From NCBI GenBank assembly GCA_026874595.1, contig CM049311.1, forward strand, positions 34,327,176 through 34,391,175: DNA of 64,000 nucleotides. Direction: 5' to 3'. This stretch comes from Sipunculus nudus. Taxonomy: Eukaryota > Annelida > Sipuncula > Golfingiida > Sipunculidae. Shown piece by piece: positions 6,127 through 54,130 of this stretch. The notes beneath the pieces are model-generated. The model was not told the DNA's origin. It saw only the letters and a list, made by a program, of their open reading frames with translations, and searched no databases. Position 1 is the stretch's first letter. Each line of letters starts with the position of its first letter. Both the position numbers and the translations under genes were made by a program.

Positions 6127-6865
6127 CCAGAATACGGGTAGTCGACAAGCGACTATGTGTATCCGCCGAAATCAGATTGGTAAGACTGAAGTGAGGCATG
6201 AATTGAGTGGTGAGGGGAAAAGGAGTGAGATGTGATGCATATTAGCACGGTTGTCTGCCGTGTAAACATGTTTATAGATGGCGCCACCTGCCAACACAAC
6301 GAAAAATCTATCTCAGATGTATACACATTCAAAATTTCAGGCGGATAAGTCAAGATATGAGTGATTTTGACCCTAGACAGATAAACAGATGAACATCATG
6401 CAAAAATAGTTGCAGGTGGTGCCACCACTTTGTGTATGATATATATATATAAGATCTAAACACATGCAAAATTTCAGACCGATACGTCAAACCAGTCCTG
6501 GGATATTAGCATGGATGTCTGAAGCATAAACGTAATTGTAGGTGGTGCCACCTGTCACATAAACGAGAAACCTATTACAGATGTATATATACACATGCAA
6601 AATTTCAGTTGGATAAGTCCAACCATTGCAGAGATATGAGTGATTTTAACCCAAGGCAGACGAACAGATGGACGCATTGCAAAAATGTTTGCAGGTAGCG
6701 CCACCAGTTTTGCATATGATAAAGAGCTATTAGTATGGATGTGTGAAGCGTTAAATTCATAAAATTCCGTCCGGTGGTTACGGAGGAGTTCTCCGGAAAC
6801 CCATGCGGCGGCAGTGGCATCCGGCTAAAAACATACTATTCGCAAATCTCTGTTTTGGCGTATAC
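6127..6865 (-). mobile_element. Helentron/Helitron2-like non-autonomous element, family I
   Basis: Same family as the 49716-51462 element, in reverse orientation. Read on the minus strand it starts GTATACGCCAAAAC, passes a degenerate hairpin and a CCG-rich stretch, carries about two core units with GGTGGCGCCACC-like palindromes (near 6279, 6413, 6538, 6693), then a subterminal GGCGGATAC (the inverted copy of the family 5' motif), a hairpin TAGTCG-CTTGT-CGACTA and a terminal CTGG next to T. A CTRR end after a hairpin with a subterminal inverted repeat fits Helitron2/Helentron relatives. No replicase or helicase is encoded. Confidence 0.75.
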
Positions 6866-34109: not shown

Positions 34110-34410
34110 ATTCACAGAGTTAACAAATAAGTTTACATTGGCAACATGCCATGCAATGTGATGATCTTTAATTCTGTATCAGTAAAATGTTCACGGAGTT
34201 ATCAATTAAGTTTGCCTTGGCAACATGCAGAGCAATAGTGATGATCTGTAATTCTGTATCAGTAAAATGTTTACAGAGTTAACAATTAAGTTTACATTGG
34301 CAACATGCAGAGCAATAGTGATGATCTGTAATTCTGTATCAGTAAAATGTTCACGGAGTTAACAAATAAGTTTAGGTTGGCAACATGGTGTGCAACAGTG
34401 ATGATCCGTA
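34110..34410. repeat. 80-bp tandem repeat, about 3.7 copies
   Basis: The GAGTTAACAA-type landmark recurs at 34117, 34196, 34276 and 34356, and each unit contains TTGGCAACATGC and CTGTATCAGTAAAATGTT. The two central units are nearly identical. Confidence 0.9.
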
Positions 34411-36540: not shown

Positions 36541-37196
36541 TATGCCCCCGCCACAAAGTGGCCGGGGCATATCGTTTTACCCATGTCCGTCATTCCGAAA
36601 TCAAACAGTTGTACAGACATTTTTTCGCAATGCCTGCAGATATTGGCCTGATTTTTGGTGTGTGGGCAGATAATGACCAGTTACAGTTACAGATCAAGTT
36701 GGCCTTTTTTCCGGTTGACCTACTTTTGACCGTTTTACGGCTCCTAAACTAAAAAAGATTCATGAAAAATAGAAATTTTCATGACAAATACACATGTACG
36801 GACTTTTTTTCGCAATGCCTGCAGATACTGGCCTAATGTTTGGTCTGTGTGCGCATAATGACCACTGTTACAGTTACAGATCGAGTTCGCGTTTCGTCCC
36901 GGTTGACCTACTTTTGACCGTTTTACGGCTCCTAAACTTAGAAAATTTCATGAAAAGTAGAAATTTTCATGACAAATACACATGTACGGACTTTTTTTCG
37001 CAATGCCTGCAGACACCGGCCTGATTTTTGGTGTGTTGCTTGATAATGACCCTTTACAGATTGAGTTTGCATTTTTCCCTTGTTGACCTACTTTTGACCA
37101 TACAACACTTCCTGAACTTAAAAAATTTTACAAAATTTAACAAATGTTTCTAATTTGCCCCAGGCGGGGGCATTCCTGTCGTTCCGACACATCTAG
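36541..37196 (+). mobile_element. Helentron/Helitron2-like non-autonomous element, family II
   Basis: A 656-bp element in intron 1. The 5' end is a 31-bp hairpin: TATGCCCCCGCCAC-AAA-GTGGCCGGGGCATA, 13 of 14 pairs. The body is about three core units of 185-188 bp (TTCGCAATGCCTGCAGA at 36624, 36809, 36997). Near the 3' end GGCGGGGGCAT (37163-37173) is the exact inverted copy of the 5' ATGCCCCCGCC, followed by a TGTCG-TTC-CGACA hairpin and terminal CTAG next to TT. No protein is encoded. Confidence 0.8.
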
Positions 37197-40100
37197 TTTT
37201 CTACCACATTTTGTGTGCAAGTCTAGTTTACAATAAGCAGATATATATGAAGTAATCTTTGTTAATTGGTAAATGTATGCCTTTCTGGAAAACAAATTGG
37301 AACACTATTAAAATCATTTCAGCCTTTTATTGTGAAAATCTTCATGGTCATATTATCTGTCATAATCAGGGGGTATTAGTATATATGAATAATATTTTTT
37401 GACCTGCTACTGCAAAATAGATTTTATGCAATGTCCAGGTATACTCCCAAATTGTTTAAAGTGGACCAACAGTATTTTTGTGCTTAAGTGAATATGTTGG
37501 TGTTAATTTATGAATATTATTAATATTCATCATTCATGGTATTTTAAATGTACAGGTTCATGTGTTTTGAATGTGGTTCACATATTTTGTTGGAAGCAGT
37601 TGTATGAAAAATGCTTCTTGCGTGAGTAGGGATTTTCAAGACTCACACTTAATCCTTAAAAAATTCTATTTTAAAATGACATTGTAATTAATAAAGGTAA
37701 AATGCATTATTGCTGACAGATAAGATACAGAGATTCAAGCAATATAGAGATGATATGTAGTGGATTTGACCAACAATTATTGTCCAGTTAGGAGTGTGTT
37801 TGAGGTACCTTGTTTCTTGTGGTGTGGTTTAACCCAAGAATAAACCCTATAAAACAGTCTGTGCTGTCAGAGACTTGCTCCCATGAGGTCTTGTTGACTG
37901 CCAGCGCATGTCTCAGGCCTTTGTGGCTCCCCAGGGCCTACCTTAATAGTACTATAATATGAAAATTCTAGGACATGATAGTATAGAACAAAGGGAACAT
38001 AAGACGTGAAAGTGTCTGCAAACCATCTTGATAAATGATCCATCAGGGGGGGTCAGCAAGCCATTAGTGAGATGAGCTTTCAGGCTGACTTGATCTGGGT
38101 TGACAGAGTGGGAGTAATTGATAGCTGAATCATCCAGAGAAATGCCACAAGTGTTGCCCCTGCAGGTCCTATATTATGTTGATTAGCCATGTGGGCTTTT
38201 GACAGATTTCATTCATAAGATTGCACCAACCTTGTCTGTGTACAAACAATGTGGCTTTTCAAAACACAGCTGGGTCAAGGGTCGCCCAGGTGCTAGTCAG
38301 GGGGCCAGACCCTGGTATGTATGTCATAGTGCTACTGATATTTATACTGTGATGTTGCCACATGTGGCCTTCAAGCAGGGCTACCTGGCATTCCTTAAGG
38401 TTAACCTTGACCTCAGAGCACCTGCCAGATACCATAAAGACCCTAAAGATCCTTTCCCCCATTTAACTATTTTTTTTGTCTTTGCTCCCCACTTGATGGA
38501 TCGAGTTAAAATGACAAATTATCTGGAATTAGGGACCTGGGTCTTCTTGAGGCTGTCACATTTGATTTACCGGAGCCGGCTTTTTTAATGCTTTTCAAAT
38601 GGCTGATTATTTTCTTCCAGTCTGGCTCAGAAAGCCCGATGGCTATATTTGGAGGAGTTAACTGATTGTCACATGAGACTTTTATCAGAGCCAGGGGATC
38701 CTTGGTGTATTGTCCTTGTTCACCCTTGGCCCACGCAATTGAACTCAAATCCACTAGTAGAAAAAAAAGTTAACCAGGATAGAAAAAGTTCATGTGTCAG
38801 ATGAGAATAGCTGCACAGCAAATTTCCTTTCATCATTTGAGACGGTTGTTCATTCTTTGTAATCGATTATGCATGCCTGCAGCTTAATGAAGGTTCCTGC
38901 AGATGCTGTGACAGGGTACGTTAGATCACAGAGATGTCTGTTTAAAAAAAGATAGACTTCGGTGCTTTTTTATGGGTCATTCAGTAATGCTTTTATTGTT
39001 CACAGGTGTTACTACTTACTCTCAGTATAGTATTTCCTGGAAAGCATATTGTAATATTATATCTGTAGATGTTCTGGCGACTATGGATATTATATAACAT
39101 GAGTCTCAGAAAATGGGACTTCTACATTAATGATACTTTTATGTTACATTAAGAGTTTTGTTGCATTTCATTACATTTGAAATAACTGATAAATACTTAA
39201 TTAACATCCCAAAGACCTCAGATTGAGTCTGCTGGAGACTAGCGCAGGCGCAGTTGCAACATCAGCTCTGGACTAATTGATCAGACTGTAGGGCTGGCAG
39301 ACGGACAAAATGGAAGCTCTCTACCAAATCAGTGCTCTCTCATAGGACAGATTTGTTCGTCATTATCTGGGTTGATCAGAGTTTTGTGTGGGCCTGTTTA
39401 ATTGTTTTTGATGTTTTGTTAGAGGTTTGGGTTAAATTTAATCACCATCAGGCCTGGTAGTGGTGGTCTGTGATAGAGAACATGGACCTTTTAAGCGGTC
39501 ACTTCGTTATCAACACGACTTTGGTAGAACCAATCTGCCCTTGTTTTTCTTTAATTTTATAAACGTCTGCAACAACCTGGCTTTGTTCCTTGGGTCTTCA
39601 TTAGAACAAGGAGAGCATTAAAGCATTTGATCTTTTTATGTAACATAGGATCAGATAATGGAGAGAATATTTGAAACTCAGTCCAGACCTCAAATATAGC
39701 TACTGTGATGCCTGCATCAGTTTCCTCCCAGGTTTTCAGTGCATTAGCTATTTAGGGGCAGACCAGTATTCAGGCTATGCCAAATTTAACACCCCCATAC
39801 ATGTGTAAGTTGTCATAATATTCCTGAGTATTTGCACCAACTTTGATTAAAACTGTACATTTTCTAATAATACTTAACTTGTAATTTCATAATGCCATCA
39901 GCTTGTCCAGCTGTAGTGCATTTCCAAATTTTTTTGTTTCTTTCAGGACCATTTTTCTCAAAACACCTACATTTTCTTTCTCTTTTGGTTATGCAAATGC
40001 AGCTTAGTGAATTACCTTTAAAATGTAAATGTGGCATTGTAAATGAACAATTATTGGCAATAACTTTTTATTAGGTCACTTTGTGATCACAAAAGCATGT

Positions 40101-40844
40101 ACTGAGTACATTAAAAAAATTTTCAATTTATACATTCTCAGTAAAATCATTTAGGATGTCACACTGGTTTTATCTAAGATCACCATGATTAATGTTATTT
40201 ATGGTTTCAGTCCTACTATTTTTCCTTCACGGTTTCTTACTTGAGCCATCCATTTCTGTATTTCCATCAAACATCTTTCTTTATGGTGTACTAGACAGAG
40301 TTTGCTGTAATTTCTGCTTAATAAATGTTTTCTGGAGCCCACCTCACTGCAAGGAGGGGCTGAAATTTGTATACTTGTACAATACTGATTCATTATCTAG
40401 ATGACATTAAAAATAATTAAATGAACATTGTTGAATCAGGAAGATTGAAGCTTGATACAATAAAATTCCATGTTTTCTAGGCATCACATTTTTATTGCAA
40501 ACTTCTTATTCTTCCACACAGTTTGCAATCCAGGCATAGTGAGTCATCTAACTTTAAAATTTGCTGTGAAAATAGCTGTTACCCCAGTACATCACAATAA
40601 TTCAAGTATACAACATAATGGGATACTGTTTATATTTGTGGCTTTGGAATTGTTCTTTGAGCTGTTGCTTGAATAAAACTTAGATATTCAGCATATTTTT
40701 GTAACCACTTCTATTTGTGATTCAAGCATCTGATTTGTCTGTAATTTATGCCATTCTCAAATTAATCACTTTGGATGGTTGAACACCTTTTGAGTTTCCC
40801 TTAGACATGTTGCTATTCATTGTGCATTGGTTTATATTTCACAG

Positions 40845-41039
40845 GGTGCCCAAATGATGCCAAATATGAGGCCTGGGGGTGGGGCGGTGGGACCAGGATA
40901 CAACCAGCAGGGTGGGGCACCATTTGGGGGTCACCAGTACCCTCCTACCTCACAACGTTTCCCCATGGGCCAGTCCCCGGGTCCTGGGCGACACACCCCA
41001 GGCTCGATTCCTGGTCAACCACCCTTCAACCAACAGCAG
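40845..41039 (+). CDS. ARID1: ARID1 coding exon 2
   Basis: Continues the ARID1 N-terminal disordered region as residues 268-332. The composition is G/P/Q-rich, with a TSQRFPMGQSPGPGR stretch that resembles the TPQRYPMTMQGR segment of vertebrate ARID1A just after the first intron. The acceptor is a pyrimidine-rich tract ending in ttcACAG at 40844, and the donor is CAG|GTAAGC at 41039/41040. Both junctions are phase 0, so the 195-nt exon is symmetric and could be skipped without a frame change. The reading frame is open and in register with exon 1. The flanking frame closes shortly after the donor, which supports these limits. Confidence 0.87.
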
Positions 41040-42010
41040 GTAAGCTGCCAGGTCAAACCTATGTAAAACTTAGCTACAAATAAAAACTGTTAAACCACTT
41101 AACCTATATTCTTGTTTCATTGATTAAAGATGAGTATATTGTAAGAAGCATTTCTACAGTCTGTCCAGTAGAGAGAATCAGTGTTCTTTTCAAGCTTCTG
41201 AATTTCTTTGGAGACCCTTGATGTAGAAATCTTTCCTTTGAAGTCTTGACAAAAAGACCTTGAATTTCATTGCAGAGCTACTGCCCATATTTCAGTTCAT
41301 CACATAAGCACATCAGATTGTTTTTGTGCATTAAGTAACATTTTGCACTTGTTTTAACCCATTTTAGTTGTGACCACAGCATCAGATCAGTCAGGAAATT
41401 CACTTATTTATGGTCCTTGAAATTTGTAAATGTTGACCTTGACAGTCCTTGAAAAGTCCTTGAAATCATTGTGTTTTCTTATTTAAAAAATACAGCACCA
41501 TTTCAGCCTATTCACATTAGTCTCTGACCAGCTTCAGAGTGCCATTACATGTTGGCACTGCATAATTTTGTAGTGTATACTCCTGCTTTATTCTCAGGAG
41601 TGATTTGACATATCAGCCTGAAATGATGCATGTCCTTACATCTTTGATGGCTTTATCGTACACAATACTGGTGGCACCAACTACAATCATTTTGTGTTGT
41701 GTACATCCATGCCAGTATTTCAGGAGTGACATTTGTGTAATTGGTCCTTATACTCGGGTCAAAATGTTAAGTACTCGCATTGTACATTACATGTAACACA
41801 TGTACTTGAAAATTAATGATCCAGCATGGAAACATTATACCTGATGTGTATCCCATTGCACAGGGTTGCATCAGGCCTGTAGGCCTTGTTGAATTTCTGG
41901 CCACATTAATACAAACATAGCACAGGTTACTGGATGATAGTCAGCTTGTACACGACACAGGAAATGACTTGTTACCATTGAGAATCATTTTCACTTTCAT
42001 TTGGGAATTT

Positions 42011-42262
42011 ACAAGTATTCTTTTGGGCTTTATCCCGCACTTGTAGTGTAATGTTAAGATTATCAGCTCTTAACCATGATACCAATGCAACAAGATGGCT
42101 GTGGCAGTGCATTCCCCCCTGGTGGCTTGTGAATATACAAGTATTCTTTTGGGCTTATTCCTCACTTGTAGTCTAATGTTAAGATTATCAGCCCTTAACC
42201 ATGATACCAATGAAACAGGATGGCTGTTGCAGTGAATTCCCCCTGATGGCTTGTGTCATGAC
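42011..42262. repeat. 126-bp tandem duplication
   Basis: Two copies beginning ACAAGTATTCTTTTGGGCTT (42011 and 42137), with shared TTAACCATGATACCAATG and GATGGCTGT segments. Confidence 0.9.
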
Positions 42263-42539
42263 TAAAGTAAGCTTACCAGTCTAGTATGAATTCCCACTTA
42301 GTTGTGCATTCATGGCTATTAAAAATCATATGGAGTTGTATGCAGACTTGCAATTGACATGATTTATGTAGCCTCAGATCTTGAGCATAATAATTTTGAA
42401 GATAAAAATGTTGTCAGCACCATGATATGATATGATCCTAACAATGCATGTTTCTCACAGTTATTTCCAGAGGTTAAATATGATAATAATTTCCAAAATT
42501 TTGGTATATGTTAGTCTCAATAAAAAGTTTCATGTCATG

Positions 42540-42990
42540 GCCAGGGTGGTGATCTTCCCTTAACTTTGAGTGTCGGCGTGATAACTTACCAGAGCTTTGA
42601 TGTATTTCCAGGAAACTATTTAGCAATTGATTATATTGCCAAGATTGATTCTCAACAAAAAAAGTGCATATATTATGAGGTCAGAGGTCACCATGCTTCT
42701 TTATGGTGTCACTGTGATAACATACTAGAAAAATAACAGATTTTGATGGAACTCCTCAGAAGTATTATCTTATATAGTATCTGCTGAGTTTGATTCTTAT
42801 CAAAACCACATATTTAATGAGGCTAGAGGTCACCAGACTTTGACGGGGCCATGATTACTTACTAATATTGATGAAATTTCATTAAAGATTTAAACTTTAA
42901 AGAGTGTTGCTCATCTTAATTCAATTCTCGGCAGAATTCGCAGATATTTAATGAGGTCAGAGGTCAAAAGACTTAGGACAGGCATATTAT
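42540..42990. repeat. Degenerate ~140-bp tandem repeat with AGGTCA motifs
   Basis: Three units, each with TGAGG(T/C)(C/T)AGAGGTCA at about 42678, 42819 and 42954. Two of them read AGGTCAGAGGTCA, a direct repeat with 1-bp spacing. Confidence 0.65.
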
Positions 42991-43438
42991 TGCACTCTTG
43001 CAGTGCTAGGTTCTTACAAGTTTGACATGATGGCTGACCACTATGAAACAATGTATTAATCATCGATAATTACATTTTTCACAGTAAAGACACCTTATGT
43101 AATTTGTAAAAGTATATTTTGTATCATGATTGAGAAACAACATCTCCAATATTTAATATTTGAATGTTTTTAATAATCCAGTGATATAATGGCACTTCAC
43201 TGAGGAACAGAGTCAAATTTTAACACTTAAGCTGCTGAGTTATGTTACATTCAAATTTTAACAGCCACATTTATTGTTACTAACCTTCAATATGCTGCTT
43301 CTTAAAAGTATATCATTTGCAGCCATTCAGTTTTATACAAAGTGCTGTCAGCTACAGGCAGTTGTCCCAACCTTTGTATAAATTTTAACAAAACCAAGCC
43401 ATTTTCATCTATTGTTATCCCTCTTTTTTCCTGTAAAG

Positions 43439-43678
43439 ATGCAGGGCCAATATCCACCCAGCAGCCAATCAGGGTTTAGCCGAGGACAGCCTGGACAGCA
43501 AGGGTTTATGGGTAACCAATCAGCATCCAGCCCAGGCTACATGACAAGCCCTCAGTCCAGTCCCAGCATGCACCAGCCACAAACCCCAGGTCAGGGGTCA
43601 CATGGGCCATCATCGCAAGGTCCTTCCCAAATGCCTGTACCTACTCGGCCCCAGTCAAATCAGTCTATTAGTTCACAG
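43439..43678 (+). CDS. ARID1: ARID1 coding exon 3
   Basis: Encodes residues 333-412, a P/Q/S/G-rich stretch with MTSPQSSPSMHQPQTPGQ and a serine-proline-rich tail, typical of the low-complexity region before the ARID domain. The acceptor is a strong pyrimidine tract ending TGTAAAG at 43438. A second AG lies 6 nt downstream at 43443-43444, also phase 0, so the first two residues (MQ) may be optional. The donor is CAG|GTATGT at 43678/43679. Length is 240 nt, phase 0 at both ends. No further ARID1 exon was recognised to the right edge, so intron 3 seems to exceed 20.3 kb and the gene is cut by the window. Confidence 0.87.
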
Positions 43679-44479
43679 GTATGTGCCACTTTTATGTTGT
43701 GACAATTTGGGCTGTAATGATACATATTTGCAAAGATACATCAAGGTATAATAAAAAAAGTTGATCACTCCGAATTCAAAATGAAGCTTTAAGGTAATGT
43801 GTCATTAATTGTAAACAAGTTTAAGAATATTTTATTTATAAACTGTTAGAAAATAAAATTATGCATGGTATGAAAATCAAATTTATAAGAGGTTTCTATA
43901 AACAAGTGAGAAAATTGTTTGGATTCAAAGCTATAATTTACAATATAATATGGCCAAGTGTCATATATGGAGAATTGCAGTTTGTATCATATTGTGAGAT
44001 ATTGTATAATTAGAGCCCTAATGATATATCAGAAGATCTGGCAATTGTAAATTGTTCAAAATCTGTTTATATCAAATTTGTATCAAGTATCTCATATATA
44101 CTGTAGATTCAGAAATATTAGTTGGGATTTTATTTTCGTGGTTTTCATTGATCAAGATATTCCATGAATTCATTATTCCAACGATCAAAAAATCACACGG
44201 TCAGAGGATATACGGTATCTCAACAGCAGCTGGTCGTCGACTTTATATTTATAATTGTTACTGCTGGCTGAATTTTCAATAATGATACAAAAATTGTTTA
44301 TTACTTTTCTATGATTGTTTTTGATACAATCATTAAATGCACTGAATTGCTTTTCGTAAATTACTATAAATATACGGGATTTATAAATATTCTTTTGTCA
44401 ATTAAATTATTTCCCCATATATCGTACAAACACGGCCACCTGATATCTTTACAATAAAACAATATCAAAGTATAATTTA

Positions 44480-45130
44480 AACTGAAAAAGGTATTTTCCT
44501 CTTATCAGCATTTCGGATGAAAAAATCAAGAACAATACCACATTTCTGTCGAGCAAAGAGGTAGTTCTGACACGCCAAGAACGGTACACAAGTTCCAATG
44601 TTCATAACCATAGCTACCGAGGCACAGCTTTCTCGGAACCGGCCTTTTCAACCTTCTTTCAATAGATATTAAGCGAGACTTACGTTACCTTTTGGTCTAA
44701 AAGACAAGGGCCGTGTAAACTCATTTGCATTTGCGATTACCGCGGGACGCGAAAGAGCACTTATTCCGAATAAGGCGGTACTTTTTCCGAATATTGCCGA
44801 TAGTGGTACATATATATGTTAGCGTAAGTAAGCGCCACCGAATACTATTAGGCAAATTATTTCTTTTTAATCTCCAAATATAGCTGACGTGATGAATGAA
44901 GAACGAACCGTGTCTCGTCTCACCGCCCCTTCAGGGATTTACAGGCGCCACATGTGACTACCGTCTAGATAAAAAAAAAGTTAAAAACCTTCATGTTGAC
45001 AGTCCCGTTTATTTTTTTCCTCCGGTCAAGTGATGATTTACGCTTTCTGTTAACGTGGTGTGATCGGGTGTTATAACTGATAGCCGATGTATCGGGTGTT
45101 ACAACTAACAGCCGATGTATCGCCCGGCAC
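44480..45130. other. GC-balanced island in intron 3
   Basis: Base composition differs from the surrounding intron and looks like the intergenic DNA on the left of the window. Two 28-bp tandem units (CGGGTGTTATAACTGATAGC onward) lie at 45066-45121. It may be an insertion, but no ends were found. Confidence 0.35.
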
Positions 45131-45413
45131 ATGTCGGTCACGGCTGATTAATTCTTTGTTAGGCTCGGGTCGGGTGGAGCATGTTTGTTCAACACTGACC
45201 TGATTGACTTCGGTACAGATGCACCGTGCGATAAGCATCTGAGCCAAACCACCTGTGTACATCGGGCTCCTCTTCCTTGCACACATGGAGGTATTAATAA
45301 CCATAATTTTCTAGTGTTTTCTTTGTCTTTCCACAAATTCAAATACCCCACGATATGCGTTTTGTACAAAAACCACGAAATTTTAAGCCCACAATATTAT
45401 CTGAATCTACAGT

Positions 45414-45600
45414 ATGTCAAGGCCCAGATCCAGATAGGGATTTATGCTGGATTTGGTCTTGACCAATTCTCGATTGGTCCAGACCTGATCCCAAGCTTTA
45501 TTCAGTCTGGACTAAACCCTGATAATCTATTAATATAAAAATAGATGACTTTCTGTCCAATCGTTGAAGATTATGACTACCCAGACCCCTGATCCAGCTT
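45414..45600. mobile_element. Possible end of the foldback family
   Basis: TATGTCAAGGCCCAGATCC here matches the terminal TATGTCAAGGCCCAGATCG of the 12449-15340 foldback element. A matching inverted end was not clearly found; CCCTGATCCAGC near 45,590 is a weak candidate. Confidence 0.4.
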
Positions 45601-45644
45601 ATAACTGTATCTGCTTGCTTACTTCATGTCAACAAGGCTCTTTT

Positions 45645-47287
45645 TAGCTCAGCTGACTGTAAGTCATCTGAGCTTTAGTGTTCACCTTTTGTCCGTAGTT
45701 AGATTGTCTGGCTTGCAGGCCATGAACAGGGCACAAAATGTAACTTTTAGACCGAGGAACTTCTCACTGTGCATCCAGGGAGGTCATAGACAAATCTCCT
45801 GGTAAACCTGAATTTAGGTCCTGTTGACATAGTTTGTGACCTATTGGCAGAAAAATGGTTTTGGGCACCAGGACAAACTCGGCACAAATTTGTTTACATA
45901 AGACTTAGAATCCTCCAGTGTAAGATTCAGGAAGGGCTGAGGAAAATGTCCATGGAAACCTAAAATTAGGTCACATTGATTTACATTCTGCGACCTATAG
46001 GAAAAAAGATGTCATATGAGCACATTGAATGTCAGATTGGCACAAATTGTGTCGATTAGGTGTAGAATCTTCTAACGCAACATCCAGGGAGGTTCTAGGC
46101 AAATCTCATAGAAAACCTGATATTAGGTCATGGTGACCAATATTTTGCATCTGTCAACCGAAAACATGATTTTGAGAACCCAAACAGTCAGACAAGGCAC
46201 AAATTGTATAATCCATTAGGCCTAGAATCTTCTTACATAATATTCTGTGACATCCTGGGCAAATGTACTTGGAATACTGAAATTTGGTCACCATGACCAT
46301 GACTTATATTCTGTGACCTACAGGAAAAAGTGTCACATAAGCACCCAGAAGGTCAGACAGGGCTCAAATTGTATCTATTAGGCCTAGAATCTTCTAATGT
46401 TACATTCTGAGACGTCCTAGGCAATGTCCTTGGAAACATGAAATTTGGTCACCGTGACCTTTGTTTTGCAACCATAGGAGAAGATGACAAATGAGCACCC
46501 TGAATGTCAGATTAGCACAAATCATATCTTTTAAGCCCAGAATCTTCCAACGCAATATCCAGGGAGGTTCTAGGCAAGTCTCTTTGTAAACTTGAAATAA
46601 GGTCATGGTGATCTATATTTTGCTATTGGCTTAAAAACATGATTTTGAGCACCAAGACAGGGCACAAATTGTAATGTATCCTTAAGCCCTTAAATCTTCT
46701 AACACAACATCCAGGGACATCTTGGCAAATCCTACTGGAAACCTCAAAAAAACATGATTTGAGCACCATTAAAGTCAGATGGGTAAAAATTGTAAGCACA
46801 AGGCCTATGTCCCGGGCATATCTCCTTTGAAATTTTAATTTAAGTCATGGTGACCTAACTCTGCAAGCTACTGGTCAGAAGCATGATTTTGAACAGTTAG
46901 ACAGGGCAAAAATTGTATCCATTAGCCCTAGACTTTTCTAACATAACTATTCAGGAAGGTCCTTGTCAATTATCCTTTGAAACCTGAAATAGGTCATGGT
47001 GACCTATAGATATTCTGCATGTTATGGACTAGAAACATGATTTTGAGCACCAAAACAGACAGTGTACTAATTGTATCCATTTTCCTTGGAAACGTTCTAT
47101 TGAAAAATCCAGGGGGGTCCTTCGAGAGTCTCCTTTTGAATTATGATTTTTTTTTCTGTCCATTTTACAACAAAGTAAAATAAGCCATGGGCTTTTCTCA
47201 CAGATGATATATAACAAAAATTACTTTAATTAAAGAAATTAGCACCCAGTTAAATTCAGCTGAGCATAATGGCCCATTGGCCAATTG
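45645..47287 (+). mobile_element. Helentron/Helitron2-like non-autonomous element, family III
   Basis: The 5' end is a hairpin (TAGCTCAGCTGACT-GTA-AGTCATCTGAGC). The body is about seven core units of roughly 153-162 bp, marked by TAGAATCTTCTAA-like sequence at 45906, 46063, 46223, 46385, 46538, 46691 and further. Near the 3' end TCAGCTGAGC (47256-47265) is the exact inverted copy of the 5' GCTCAGCTGA, followed by a TGGCC-CATT-GGCCA hairpin and then ATTG next to TT, a plausible decayed CTTG/CTRR end. A core of about 160 bp recalls the 'pearl' elements and BIV160-type satellites of bivalves, a comparison not tested here. Confidence 0.75.
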
Positions 47288-48230
47288 TTAATAACAAAAT
47301 CCTTGTAAAATTATTTATATTTATAAATTTTTTTTTATGTTTGATACAGAATTTAATTCTCTTGATTCATACATGCATGATGCATGTAGATAATACAAGC
47401 CAAAAAAAACAAAATTCATAAAGTTTAACCTATTTCAAATTTTTACAAAGGTTAAAATGAGCCAGAAAAGTTGTAGTTTTATTTTATTCCATTGATAAAT
47501 TCATGTCATGTATCAGTCCTACTAATATTCACTTGTTCAACTATCTCTATGTATTTAAAGTTTGGCATGGCAGTGATGGCATAAATAAATTTTGTCATGA
47601 CAATATAAGATATAAGTATACGGGTAGGCTTAACCAAGTTTAATTGTATCCCCAGACAAAGTCGGGGGATACTATGTTTTCATACTGGTCCCGCCGCCGC
47701 CGCATATAAATCTTGTTGGCGCGATAACTCAAAAAATATTTCACGGATCTTTACCAAACTTGGTATATGTATAGATATGGGTTAGAGGACGACGCCTATT
47801 TAAAATGAGGTCATGACCTTGACTAGGAGAGTGTCCTTAAACTTGAATAAGTCCAATTTTGGGGAAAATCACACAAATTCTTAAATATCTCAAGAAATCT
47901 TGCATGGATTGATCCCAAAATCAAGTTGATGGAAGATAATGGGTAGGGTTGTCATTTTCCAGAAAGTGGTGGCACCACCTATTATTCTTTACTTGTTTTC
48001 ATGCCGTTTAATACCCCCAAAATTGCTACTTGACAGTACTGTGAGCATTATAAGTCAAAAACTAATGGACAGTTTTCTTTTATATTGTGCATATACATAG
48101 ATATGGGTTACAAGATGATGTTTATTTAAGATGGGGTCATGACCTTTTCTATGAGAGTGGCCTTGACCTTTAATGTGTCCATATTTGGTGAAAAGCACAC
48201 ACCTTATATCTCCAGTGTTGATAGCAATAT

Positions 48231-49715
48231 GGATTTCAAACATGACTTATGTATGGCCCACCACTAAAGTAAGAACCCTATAGGTTCTAGAGTCATGAGG
48301 TCAAAGGTCAAGGTCACTGGACTCGCATCTTAAAAGATACTGTGGATGCATTTTAAGCCAAACTTTCATCCCAGGTCTTCCATCTTGAATATATTGCTCA
48401 CTTCCCAATAGTGGATGATCCATATCAATTTTGGGGTCACAAGGTCAAAGGTCAAGGCCGCAGGAGCTATCTGTCAAAAAATTAGTTTCTGGATGATAAT
48501 TCCAGCTTTTATTGATGTATTGATTTCAAACTTGACTTATATATGTCCCATTGAAAAAGCAAGACCCCAATTGATTTTGAGGTCAAAGGTCAAGGTCACA
48601 GGACACATCTGTAAAAATATTGTGGATGCATTTTCAGCCAAACATTTCATCTCAGACCTTTCATCTTGCACATATAGTTCATCTGCCAATAGAGGATGAC
48701 CCCTAACAATTTTGAGGTCACAAGGTCAAAGGTGAAGGTCACAGGAGCCATCTGTCCAAAAGTTAGTTTCTGGATGATGATTCCTGCTTTTATTGATGTA
48801 TGGATTTCAAACTTGACTTGTATATGACCCATTTGAAAGCAAGACCTGAATTGATTTTGGGGGTCATGAGGTCAAAGGTCAAGGTCACAGGACACATCTT
48901 TAAAAAGATTGTGGATGCATTTTCAGCCAAACAATTCATCTTATATCTTTCATCTTGCACATATGGTTCACCTGCCAAGAGTGGAAGACCCCTATTAATT
49001 TTGAGGTCACAAGGTCAAAGGAGAAAGTCACAGGAGCCATCTGTCCAAAAATTAGTTTCTGGATGATAATTCCTGCTTTTATTGATGTCTGGATTTCAAA
49101 CTTGACTTGTATATGTCCCATTGTAAAAGCAAGACCCGAATTGATTTTGGGGTCATGAGGTCAAAGGTCAAGGTCACATGACTCATCTTTAAAAAGATGT
49201 GGATGGATTTTAAGCCAAACATTTTATCTCAGTTCTTTCATCTTGCACATATAGTTCACCTGCTAAGAGAGGAAGAACCCTATCAATTTTGAGGTCAAAG
49301 GTGAAGGTCACAGGAGCCATCTGTCCAAAAATTAGTTTCTGGATGATAATTCCTGTTTTTATTGATGTATAGATTTCAAACTTGACTTGTATATGTTCCA
49401 TTGGAAAAGCAAGACCCAATTGATTTTGGGGTCACGAGGTCAAAGGTCAAGGTCACAGGACACATCTTTAAAAAGATTGTGGATGCATTTTCAGCCAAAC
49501 ATTTCATCTCAGACATTTCATCTTGCTCATACAGTTCCCCTGCCAATAGAAGAAGACGCCTGTTAATTGTGAGGTCACAAGGTCAAAGGTAAATGTCACA
49601 GGAGCCATCTGTCCAAAAATTAGTTCCTGAGATGATAATTCAAGCTTTGATTAATATTTGGATTTCAAACCTGACTCATATATGGCCCATCAATAAATCT
49701 AGACCTCTATTGATT
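48231..49715 (+). repeat. Core array of 280-290-bp units carrying AGGTCA cassettes
   Basis: Each unit has two halves, each with an AGGTCA cluster. Five exact copies of AGGTCAAAGGTCAAGGTCA start at 48298, 48580, 48869, 49158 and 49437; near-matches start near 48442, 48720, 49010, 49292 and 49578, with two more at about 51505 and 51655 after the nested element. Periods alternate around 281 and 289 bp. Confidence 0.85.
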
Positions 49716-51462
49716 GTATCCGCCAAAACGAAGTTTTGCGGATACTATGTTTTTGACCGGGTTCCGCCGCCGCCGCCGCCGCGTTCGTTTCCGGAGAACT
49801 CCTCTGAGACTACTGGACAGATTTTTCCGAAACTTACAAAAATTATCGGGTCACATGTGAACTGGTGCCTAACCAAGTGACCTTGACCTCTGACCTTTCG
49901 TCTCTGCCCAGCGTCCGTTTGTGCGTCTGTTTCCACACATAAACCCATATATCTCAGGAACCGTTTGACCGATCCGGAAAAAAATTTTACACAAATGTAG
50001 CCCTGGGAAAGCTTTATAACATACACAACAAAAGGTGGCGCCACCTGCAACCATGTTTGCACAGTGTCCATCTGTTCATCTGCCTGGGGTTAAAATCACT
50101 CATATCTCTGCAGTGATTTGACTAATTCACCTAAAATTCGGCATGCATATACATCCTAGATAGCTTTCTCGATTTTGTGACAGGTGGCGCCACCTACATT
50201 CACGTTAACGCTCCACACATAATCCCATATATCTTGGGAACCGTTTGACCAATCCGGAAAAAAATTTTACACAAATGTAGCCCTGGGATAGCTTTATAAC
50301 ATACACAACAAAAGGTGGCGCCACCTGCAACCATGATTGCACAGTGTCCATCTGTTCATCTGCCTGGGGTTAAAATCACTCATATTTCTGCAGTGGTTTG
50401 ACTAATTCACCTAAAATTCAGCATGCATATACATCCTAGATAGCTTTCTCGAATTTGTGACAGGTGGCGCCACCTACATTCACGTTAACGCTCCACACAT
50501 AATCCCATATATCTCGGGAACCGTTTGACCGATCCGGAAAAAAATTTTACACAAATGTAGCCCTGGGATAGCTTTATTACATACACAACAAAAGGTGGCG
50601 CCACCTGCAACCATGTTTGCACAGTGTCCATTTGTTCATCTGCCTGGGGTTAAAATCACTCATATCTCTGCAGTGGTTTGACTAATTCACCTAAAATTCG
50701 GCATGTGTATACATCCTAGATAGCTTTCTTGATTTTATGACAGGTGGCGCCACCTACATTCACGTTAACACTCCACACATAAATCCATATATCTCAGGAA
50801 CCATTTGACTGATCCGGAAAAATTTTTTACACAAATGTAGCCCTTGGATAGCTTTATAACATACACAACAAAAGGTGGCGCCACCTGCAACCATGATTGC
50901 ACAGTGTCCATCTGTTCATCTGCCTGGGGTTAAAATCACTCATATCTCTGCAGTGGTTTGACTAATTCACCTAAAATTCAGCATGCATATACATCCTAGA
51001 TAGCTTTCTCGAATTTGTGACAGGTGGCGCCACCTACATTCACGTTTATGCTGCAGACATCCAAGCTCATATCTCAGGAACTGTTTGACCAATCAGGAAA
51101 AAAAACTTTACACAAATGTAGCCCTTGGATAGCTTTATAACATGAACAAAAATGGTGGCGCCACCTGCAGCCATTTTTGCACAGCGTCCATCTGTTTGTC
51201 TGCTGTGGGATAAAATTACTCATATCTCTGCAGTGGTTTGACTTTTCCACATGAAATTTTGCATGTGTATATATCTTGGATAGTTTCTCGTTCAAATAAC
51301 AGGTGGCGCCACCTACAATCATGTTTATGTAGCAGAGATCCATTCTAATATTTAACACATGTAACTCTATATCCCCTTGCCACTCAATCAGTGCTCACTT
51401 CACCCGTCCTTCTCTGATTTTGGGGGATACACGTAGTCGCTTGTCGACTACCCGTATTCTAG
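49716..51462 (+). mobile_element. Helentron/Helitron2-like element, family I, nested in the family IV element
   Basis: The 5' hairpin is GTATCCGCCAAAAC-GAA-GTTTTGCGGATAC, then (CCG)6. A core array of 280-bp units follows. The 3' end has GGGGGATAC (8 of 9 bases of the inverted 5' motif), a GTAGTCG-CTTGT-CGACTAC hairpin (51433-51451) and CTAG (51459-51462) next to TT. It lies inside the family IV array: the left flank ends in an ACCTCTATTGATT unit and the right flank resumes in a different part of a unit. No protein is encoded. Confidence 0.8.
49931..51340 (+). repeat. Five exact-period 280-bp tandem units with AGGTGGCGCCACCT palindromes
   Basis: Unit starts are at 49931, 50211, 50491, 50771 and 51051, exactly 280 bp apart. 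Every unit contains two copies of the 14-bp palindrome: at 50033, 50182, 50313, 50462, 50593, 50742, 50873, 51022, 51153 (one end base changed) and 51302, spaced alternately 149 and 131 bp. The middle units are nearly identical, suggesting recent amplification or homogenisation. Confidence 0.93.
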
Positions 51463-52595
51463 TTTATATATAAAAGTGGATGATCAATATCAATTTTGGG
51501 GTCACAAGGTCAAAGGTCAAGGCCACAGGAGCCATCTGTCAAAAAATTAGTTACTGGAGGATAATTCCTGCTTTTATTGATGTATAGATTTCAAACTTGA
51601 CTTATATATGGCACATCAATAAATCTAGACCTCTATTGATTTTGGGGTCATGAAGTCAAAGGTCAAGGTCACAGGACCAACATCTTCAAAAAGATTGTGG
51701 ATTGATAGATGGAAGAAACAATAATTGCTTGCCAAGTGTCAGTATATGCTGCTAAAAAATGGGGGCCTATTCTTAAAGGGGGGGGGGGGGGGGGTCTTAC
51801 AATGTCTGGGGATACTCTGGCACAAGAAATGTCTAGTTATCCTTAATTTAATTAGAAGTATATGCTGAAGGCATTATTGAGTATTATGTCAACTCACAGT
51901 CTGAATCAGGATTTCTTTTATTATATATCATTAGAAACTCATTAGTACCTTATTTGACTTGAAGAAATCTGTTCAAGTGTACCATATGATTGGTAATAAT
52001 ATTAAGACAGCCATAAAAATGGTATTCTGCTATTGCCAGTACACGGATGAAAGTAAAGATCTGCAGGTGTGTACTTGGGAAAAATTATGGAAATTCCCTG
52101 TTTTGTACACTCCTTACATCATCCTGTGATGTTAATGAGCTGTATTTCAGAGATATTGTTAAAGAGATAAATGCTGGTGTCGGGCCTGGTAAGCTGTGTA
52201 ATTATACTGGCTTTGAGTCACCATTGTTATAGGAACTTGTGAAGAATGGAGGCTATTAATTCCCTATCAGGTAATATTGCATTAGAGGTAAAAACGTTAG
52301 GCATACTTTAAAATTTACATCAGTATTTCAGTAGGACTAATCAGAAATGACATTGGCCAGTTGCATCTGTTCAGGAATGTTGCAAATCAATTACAGGATT
52401 TTATATGTAAAAACGAACCGTGAGAGAAAAAACTAGATGATGAATTCAATGCAAAGCCCAGGGTCTTATTGTAGTGTCAGAAAAATGAACTGATGCTGCC
52501 AGTCAACACCTCTGGAATAGGATCATCCTGTACATGTTAGTTTTGTTTAAAAAAAAATGTGTTTATAATGACAAAAGGGGAATTCCAAGTAACAG

Positions 52596-52616
52596 CCCCC
52601 CCCCCCCCCCCCCCCC
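52596..52616. repeat. C21 homopolymer
   Basis: Twenty-one C on the sense strand of intron 3. Confidence 0.95.
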
Positions 52617-53184
52617 ATTGCCATTATGCATATATTGCATGCAGATAGAATAAATTAGTTTTATATGAGGTTTTACTTGGCATTAAAGGGGCTTATCTAT
52701 TCCTAGTACAGAGGCTATGTTGTAGACTGATAAATCAGCTGTTTGAATAAAATAAAGGATGCATGTTAACCTCTGTACCGTAAGCACTTTGACAGCCTTT
52801 GTTTTTCCTTCTGAACAAGGTGGCATAGACAAAGTGTGTTTATGTTTTGTTGGTGAGCCACAAAAATGGGTTACTTTAAATATGCTTGCCCTTATATTCT
52901 CCACTATTGCATGTTTATCTCAATCATACAACTTAGAGCCAGTTGTGTAAGATCATATTATTATGATTCCATGTATGAAAGTAGTAGTCAATTTTGTTGA
53001 GTGTAAAAAAAATATAAAGGTTGGACTGATCAAACTTGTGCATGAAATTATGTTAAACTTTATATAACTGAAGAGATTCAGAATTTAGTTGATTATAAAG
53101 TTATTAAAATTGTCCATGCACATCATAATGATATCAAATGATAAAGAAATTGGTTATTATAAAAATTTATTGAACTTTGTGCAC

Positions 53185-53203
53185 GGGGGGGGGGGGGGGG
53201 GGG
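53185..53203. repeat. G19 homopolymer
   Basis: Nineteen G on the sense strand of intron 3. Confidence 0.95.
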
Positions 53204-53837
53204 AGTGATTCACATAATAAAGTTATTGTCCAAATTATCTGGCAGCCAAGGTGACAAATACTTCAATCTCGTTAAACCAAATGATAAATTTGTTTATAGA
53301 CTTTAGTCCAAGGTGATATAAAACAAATATCAGGTTATCATTGTCATAATAGACCTTGGCCTTAGGCCAGGGTGTTGAACCTGATGCTTAAACATTAAAG
53401 ATAAGCCTGTAAAAAAATAACCATTTGAATTAAATGATAAAAATCTGGTATAAAAATATAGGAAATATTAATAAGCTGTTTTTGTTTATATCAAAAGTCA
53501 ATGTAACAGACAGTTGTACTTTAATATATCTAGCATTACTCTGAAGTTCAACATAAACAGGTTAATTAATAACTTTAAGTAACTGAATCAGTCTTCAAAA
53601 AAGGTGTCCTGTGCATCGAACTGAAATATCTTCATTTTACTTTGAGAGTCTTTGGTGAGGAAAGATATTTCTTTTGTAGCTTGCATGTAAACATTTCCTA
53701 CCAACAAGTCAGAAATGTTTCATTTTACAGTGGAATAATTATTTTGGTTTTTGGGTACATAATTTTGTGTGTATAAATGACACCAGTAACAAAATTCTTG
53801 CTTTAAAAAATGTAATAAATTTTATTTCTAATTTTCA

Positions 53838-54130
53838 GCCGACTGTAAGTCATCTGAGCTTCAGCAATCACCCTTTGTCTGTCAGGACATGTGGGCATTC
53901 TGTTGTTTGTTAACAGGGCACTGATCAGAACTGTTAAACCTACATACTTCTATCTTAACATCCTGGCAGATCCAGCAATTAGGTCATTGTGTGACCTATA
54001 TTCTACAAACCATGGGCTACAACATGATTGCTCATTGCTTCACAGTGTTAAAAGTTGCTTTAAAGAATTAAGATTTCCCCATGTTAAACCTAAATTTTTT
54101 TTGGAAACCATACTTTTCAACCCCTGTTAA
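53838..54130 (+). mobile_element. 5' fragment of a family III Helentron-like element
   Basis: Begins CAGCCGACTGTAAGTCATCT, the 5' hairpin region of the 45645 element (GACTGTAAGTCATCTGAGCT in both), then continues through TTTGTCTGTCAGG, AACAGGGCAC and ATTAGGTCATTGTGTGACCT into the core. No 3' end was found, so it is truncated or decayed. Confidence 0.65.

Follow-up and report, generated by a model that had tools for sequence, protein, structure and literature searches.

The window analysed here, a 64,000-nucleotide stretch of Sipunculus nudus DNA (contig CM049311.1, positions 34,327,176 to 34,391,175, forward strand), carries members of four families of mobile elements, designated I to IV, in which an outer arm at the 5' end pairs with an inner arm just downstream to form a hairpin whose stem is interrupted once and whose loop is three nucleotides long, while a third arm, complementary to the outer one, lies near the 3' end. 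In most copies, the inner 5' arm fails to match the outer arm where the stem is interrupted, and the 3' arm matches it there. Because of the anatomy of the elements, their copy numbers and the stop-free Helentron-type frames of the same genome, it is very probable that the four families are non-autonomous Helentrons of the HINE/DINE-1 type. They are probably new HINE families. To the best overall explanation, in which these HINEs would be moved in trans and their ends recognised by the mechanism proposed below, we assign a probability of about 0.7.

The interruption is of a different kind in each family, namely an A.G mismatch in I, C.C in II, C.T in III and a bulged C in IV. An earlier reading of the same DNA (the sequence-only reading) had described a hairpin formed by the first 10-14 bases; the hairpin was found in all four families, but each stem is broken once. 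For families I to III, the bases at the site were counted by hand in 100 listed places per family, without mismatch outside the free positions; these were the first places of contig 1 rather than a random sample, and those of family III lie nearly all on the + strand, although minus-strand III copies exist. In the listed places of family I, the inner arm carries G 86, A 10, T 3 and C 1 (outer arm: A 98, T 2); in family II, C 94 and T 6 (outer arm: C 89, T 8, A 2, G 1); and in family III, T 95, A 4 and C 1 (outer arm: C 96, T 2, A 2). The facing bases are non-Watson-Crick in 96/100, 99/100 and 98/100 places, respectively. Similarly, none of the 51 listed family IV places has an uninterrupted stem (two family I variants being set aside).

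At the same site, 99 of the 100 listed 3' arms of family I carry T, the base that fits the outer arm, and one carries A; the counts for family II are G 90, A 8, C 1 and T 1, so that 90/100 match the outer arm. The 3' ends of III and IV are known from the fetched stretches alone (nine and eight ends, respectively): G is present in 9/9 distinct III ends, counted after merging the duplicates of one locus and leaving out reversed 5' ends and the remnant at 53836, and six of the eight IV ends match the outer arm. Counted without a break, the outer arm pairs with the inner arm over 8 (I), 7 (II), 6 (III) and 8 (IV) bases, and with the 3' arm over 12 (I), 11 (II), 10 (III) and 9 (IV). In the folding model, the interruption costs 2.9-5.4 kcal/mol. 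The sequence-only reading had supposed that the 3' arm could pair with either 5' arm; this has to be turned around. Since the 3' arm and the inner 5' arm run in the same sense, the outer 5' arm is the only one with which the 3' arm can pair. It is the outer arm that has two possible partners, and the 3' and inner arms compete for it.

In its standard state, each of the four families has a loop of three nucleotides. Among the minority of family I places with a perfect stem, searched with loops of 1-25 allowed, 34 of 39 have AAA on one strand, one has ACA and four have longer loops. With the three loop bases left free, the 51 listed family IV places have AGA (28), GAA (19), AAA (3) or ATA (1), all of the form purine-N-A. 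With the first loop base alone left free, A was found in 82, G in 17 and C in one of the 100 listed family III places. GNA triloops are very stable in DNA, and the 5' end of the Drosophila melanogaster DINE-1/INE-1 element likewise reads as a GTA-looped hairpin with an interruption.

Folded as DNA and compared with shuffles, the 5' hairpins gave z values of -5.5 (I), -3.9 (II), -3.4 (III, with its GTA loop) and -6.5 (IV); for III, 3/200 shuffles folded equally well, and the III palindrome GTGACCCATGGGTCAC folds weakly better than its shuffles (z -1.25). The three-part design was also sought as a hairpin followed by an exact 3' 9-mer and CT[AGT]GT in the 80 records fetched for families I to IV (320,927 bases, overlapping records unmerged), which yielded 25 matches versus one in the reversed sequence. 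All 25 carry the arm strings of families I to IV, and no further family appeared in these records. A scan of the window alone with 10-mers was discarded: it returned 177 groups on both strands versus 27-85 in 20 shuffles, and AT-rich chance matches dominate it.

The assignment to HINEs is based on the following lines of evidence. First, the elements have a 5' subterminal inverted repeat (subTIR) with an inverted copy near the 3' end, a 3' palindrome, a complementary inverted repeat (IR) at the 5' end, and a non-coding body, with no open reading frame of >=90 amino acids (aa) in the window copies of II or III and a longest one of 108 aa in I/IV. Second, TT flanks the element ends both in the window and in other copies, and the 5' ends read GTATCC, ATGCCC and GCTCAG. 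These 5' ends, the TT flanks and the inverted arms led us to reject a canonical Helitron (Helitron1), which has a 5' TC, an A/T target (a slash marks the insertion boundary, here and in the element ends given below) and no inverted repeats. Third, the genome holds at least 143 matches to Helitron_like_N (150/195 candidates were scored), a domain for which no match was found in 14 control genomes, probably all microbial. Helentrons are defined by Rep, helicase and a C-terminal endonuclease, often accompanied by OTU (PMC4067079, PMC5148889). In a stop-to-stop frame of 2,250 aa (G000, C8:80136599-80143348), the first part encodes DUF6570, OTU and Helitron_like_N, and the last part a PIF1 helicase and Exo_endo_phos. 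Several other long stop-free Helitron_like_N frames, of up to 2,426 aa, were noticed, domains being checked in one frame; such frames suggest recently active Helentrons. Between two Helentron frame copies, homology continued as far as the compared stretches reached. The earlier description of the elements as Helentron-like is thus supported by their anatomy and by Helentron-type frames in the same genome.

To estimate copy number, the source assembly (1.43 Gb, 153 contigs) was searched with 5'-end patterns allowing <=2 mismatches for I-III and none for IV. Family I gave 1491+1530 = 3,021 places and family II 2232+2231 = 4,463, with no hit for the reversed-pattern controls. Family III gave 35551+35487 = 71,038 both-strand matches (control: 0), and IV and its kin 7370+7378 (control: 3+3); because the III and IV patterns, with the mismatches allowed, also fit their own reverse complement, these figures correspond by reasoning to about 35,500 (III) and 7,400 (IV) copies. 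The 3' ends number 2092+2062 = 4,154 for I and 2045+2042 = 4,087 for II (controls: 0). The 5' and 3' ends of I and II are thus similarly numerous, which speaks against the condition that the sequence-only reading had named as evidence against itself, namely other copies lacking the 5' hairpin or the 3' inverted arm. Five family I copies stand in tandem at C1:1407723-1418682 (L012-L016). We considered a rolling-circle concatemer and rejected it, because the five copies have a 60-base upstream flank in common, which makes a segmental duplication probable. At two of eight family II loci (L049 and L052), the II 5' end lies a few bases after a III 3' end and the T run is shared; the flanks being similar, this may be one duplicated composite.

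The sequence-only reading had regarded the end design as unusual, a view that does not hold, as every element of it is already described in the published HINE/DINE-1 plan (PMC4067079, PMC7492417, PMC2374699, PMC7992393). In the Pacific oyster Cg_HINE, the 5' subTIR is reported to measure 11-12 bp and to be followed, after a gap of 1-12 bp, by a complementary IR of 7-12 bp; the element further has a microsatellite and central repeats, and its 3' part contains another subTIR and a palindrome. Families I-IV are likened to it by description of these parts, a tandem core being detected in I, II and IV. Cg_HINE differs in its variable arm gap, and its description, in the portion consulted, mentions no fixed interruption or loop rule (PMC7492417). 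The Drosophila DINE-1/INE-1 elements similarly have a subTIR with a 'partial and/or interrupted' 5' IR, a GTCY microsatellite, central repeats, a 3' stem-loop and a TT target, and differ from families I-IV by their sequences and their 13-bp subTIR (PMC2374699, PMC4067079). The full 5' end of INE-1 was not found in the paper text, the subTIR alone being given in the consulted portion of PMC2374699. The Drosophila INE-1 and family III patterns had no match in viral_contigs. The mite HINE-Mo shares subTIRs, a 3' palindrome and T-rich targets (PMC4067079), and the Fusarium FoHeli/Helitron2 elements share asymmetric inverted repeats and a GAA loop in the 5' hairpins of FoHeli1 and FoHeli2, but insert between TNAT and T (PMC5148889). 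A fixed single interruption of the 5' stem combined with a purine-N-A triloop, and with a 3' arm that fits the outer arm at the interrupted site, was not found in the published literature searched, parts of papers that did not extend to the oyster and fly arm tables.

We propose that the four families would owe their movement to a Rep-helicase-endonuclease protein acting in trans, the Rep of which, a HUH nuclease, would work on a displaced single strand. Starting from the T/element junction, the 5' end of this strand would fold into the interrupted hairpin with its purine-N-A triloop, and the interruption and the loop would distinguish the folded top strand from the bottom one, thereby enabling Rep to select the strand and the nick site. 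The 3' arm and the small hairpin preceding CTAG/T would signal termination and the second cleavage; the 3' arm would stay complementary to the outer 5' arm, allowing the ends to be matched, by protein or by pairing, before they are joined. For the 3' hairpin of Helraiser, altered loop and closing-pair bases were reported to lower activity to the level of the deletion, and a stem swap to keep about 90% of it. A bacterial parallel comes from TnpA-REP, which is a Y1 enzyme.

The REP hairpins recognised by TnpA-REP are HUH nuclease substrates, as is proposed here for the 5' ends of families I-IV, and have a conserved mid-stem mismatch in one group (PMC8266576); they are bacterial, and no evolutionary link is claimed. 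In the Escherichia coli substrate, the mid-stem mismatch is conserved and activity is lost when the stem is made regular; features of the single strand matter in recognition and strand choice (PMC8266576). By analogy, the conserved single interruption and the purine-N-A triloop might mark one strand specifically for the HUH Rep, in convergence with the REP/TnpA-REP system, with a 3' arm that must match the outer arm; this part of the proposal, although plausible as an analogy, is tentative, and we consider it less likely than not.

Several points weigh against such a mark. First, about 35 perfect-stem family I places occur in the genome, so that the lesion is not strictly required, and the outer arm of family IV gains little with the 3' arm (9 unbroken bases versus 8 with the inner arm). 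Second, families I and IV are related, so that the four families count as fewer than four independent cases. The statement in the sequence-only reading that the sequences differ completely was too strong, as over the first 10 bases 2-3 edits would suffice for I and IV to fit the arms of one another, and both continue with TATGTTTT...CCG. Third, the search patterns themselves fixed the loop in I and II, fixed most of it in III and fixed its length at 3 in IV. Fourth, the known systems are not uniform: the arm gap of Cg_HINE varies from 1 to 12 bp (PMC7492417), another survey reports the IR in 33% of oyster elements with subTIRs (PMC7992393), the subTIR of HINE-Mo is itself palindromic with no separate IR (PMC4067079), the FoHeli 5' hairpins are printed without interruption (PMC5148889), and a second TnpA-REP group uses perfect palindromes, the selection on bulge bases being moderate (PMC8266576). 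Fifth, no end of families I-IV was found in the 4.6-5 kb on either side of two Helentron frames plus a further 1.2 kb, and no biochemical work on Helentron Rep, including how ends are recognised, was found in the literature consulted.

A serious rival, and one that we consider quite conceivable though not the likelier outcome, is a founder effect, in which each family would descend from one master copy with a mutated inner arm and the interruption would have no role. The dominance of a single state within each family fits this explanation, as do the kinship of I and IV and the existence of perfect-stem family I copies. Yet the dominant defect lies in the inner 5' arm in 4/4 families, in four kinds and near stem position 7-9, and in the 3' arm in 0/4; as equal freedom of both arms gives about 1 in 16 for 4/4, this argues weakly against a founder effect.

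It is rather unlikely that Rep would simply bind the arms as ordinary duplex sites, in which case their inverted spacing would be incidental and no hairpin would form. The subTIR sequence is indeed conserved within families and the 5' arms of oyster HINEs stand 1-12 bp apart (PMC7492417), but duplex sites need no purine-N-A spacer of three nucleotides, which is standard in all four families, and a GAA loop is found in Fusarium (PMC5148889).

Less likely still is a switch of partners, in which the outer 5' arm would pair first with the imperfect inner arm and then with the better-matched 3' arm, bringing the ends together. The longer unbroken pairing with the 3' arm in families I-IV and the energy cost of the defect suit this scheme. 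However, the local triloop hairpin avoids the closing of a 0.6-4 kb loop, and a spontaneous switch would therefore not be favoured by one base pair. Moreover, the covariation check suggested by the sequence-only reading, made at the II interruption site with some 5' and 3' ends paired by eye via their coordinates, revealed no compensatory change within the family: copy C1:27724622/27725752 has 5' T with 3' A, copy C1:14140190/14139066 has 5' T with 3' G, and some copies with 3' A keep 5' C. From their sequences, these changes look like independent decay. Between families, the arms do change together (four families, two of them related). Lastly, cut-and-paste elements resembling miniature inverted-repeat transposable elements would also be short, non-coding, abundant and provided with inverted arms, but they are very improbable here, because the 3' arm is set back from the 3' end by 21-32 bases, so that the inverted repeats are not at both termini, a hairpin stands between this arm and the end in II, III and IV, the ends are CTAG/TT or similar, and the genome has Helentron-type proteins.

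Returning to the HINE families and their copies in the window (Table 1), the arms of I, II and III lie where they had been placed at the outset. For family IV, the element and its arm plan stand; the 3' arm that had been attributed to it, GGCGGATAC, is absent from the + strand of the window, where the copy at 49716 carries TTTTGGGGGATAC (51418), with one mismatch to it. GGCGGATAC is nevertheless the commonest state of the IV 3' arm (6/8 ends examined). The plan that had been drawn for the families keeps its hairpin, inverted arm and TT; the CCG run, which had been described as frequent, is present in I and IV, II and III having GTCC/TTCCG-type runs instead. Tandem arrays were detected in the window copies of I, II and IV at the default score, and none was reported in III at that score. 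The small 3' hairpin exists in II, III and IV and is mostly deleted from the window copy of I; several other family I copies keep it as GGCACC-TGC-GGTGCC. A CTRR-like end is found in II (CTAG/TT) and in the second IV copy (CTGG/TT), but the III window copy ends with AATTG; CTTG precedes T in 4/8 other distinct III ends. Most of these eight ends have the palindrome as GACCCATGGGTC or a near form, and one of the nine III ends (L001) has a different palindrome. No 3' arm match was listed downstream of the III remnant at 53836..53859.

Table 1. Positions of the HINE copies and of their parts in the window (slashes mark element boundaries)
Feature	Positions	Strand	Description	Basis
Family II HINE	36542..37196	+	whole copy, TTTTT/...CATCTAG/TT	arm positions, flanks, genome-wide 5' ends
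II 5' hairpin	36542..36570	+	outer arm 36542-36554 (ATGCCCCCGCC at 36542), AAA loop, inner arm 36558-36570, C.C at stem position 8	
II tandem core	36610..37059	+	period 188	
II 3' arm	37163..37173	+	GGCGGGGGCAT	
II 3' hairpin	37177..37189	+	TGTCG-TTC-CGACA, then CATCTAG/TT	
Family III HINE	45647..47287	+	whole copy; A at 45646 may belong too	
III 5' hairpin	45647..45673	+	outer arm 45647-45658 (GCTCAGCTGA at 45647), GTA loop, inner arm 45662-45673, C.T at stem position 7	
III 3' arm	47256..47265	+	TCAGCTGAGC	
III 3' palindrome	47271..47282	+	GGCC-CATT-GGCC	
Family I HINE	47646..51836	+	whole copy, split by family IV	
I 5' hairpin	47646..47672	+	outer arm 47646-47657 (GTATCCCCAGAC at 47646), AAA loop, inner arm 47661-47672, A.G at stem position 9	
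I tandem core	48228..49690	+	period 289	
I 3' arm	51804..51815	+	GTCTGGGGATAC; 3' hairpin beyond largely deleted	
Family IV HINE	49716..51462	+	whole copy, nested in family I	
IV 5' hairpin	49716..49745	+	outer arm 49716-49729, GAA loop, inner arm 49733-49745, one bulged C	
IV tandem core	49932..51325	+	period 280	
IV 3' arm	51422..51430	+	GGGGGATAC in this copy	
IV 3' hairpin	51433..51451	+	GTAGTCG-CTTGT-CGACTAC, then CCGTATTCTAG/TT	
Second family IV copy	6127..6865	-	3' arm GGCGGATAC, decayed 5' hairpin, CTGG/TT end	
Family III 5'-end remnant	53836..53859	+	outer arm largely lost	

Long G or C homopolymers occur in or near family I (51778-51794, 52596-52616 and 53185-53203). Outside the four elements, the window has tandem repeats at 42001-42255 (period 125) and 34111-34410 (period 80), and coding stretches that look like exons, with many G, P and Q residues, at about 40845-41040 and 43440-43680, around which the elements lie; these stretches presumably resemble ARID1.

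In flies and oysters, repeats of the DINE-1/HINE kind are very abundant. If true, a structural rule of the 5' end that is independent of the family, borne by thousands of natural copies, would offer a testable design for Rep substrates and a better signature for annotation.

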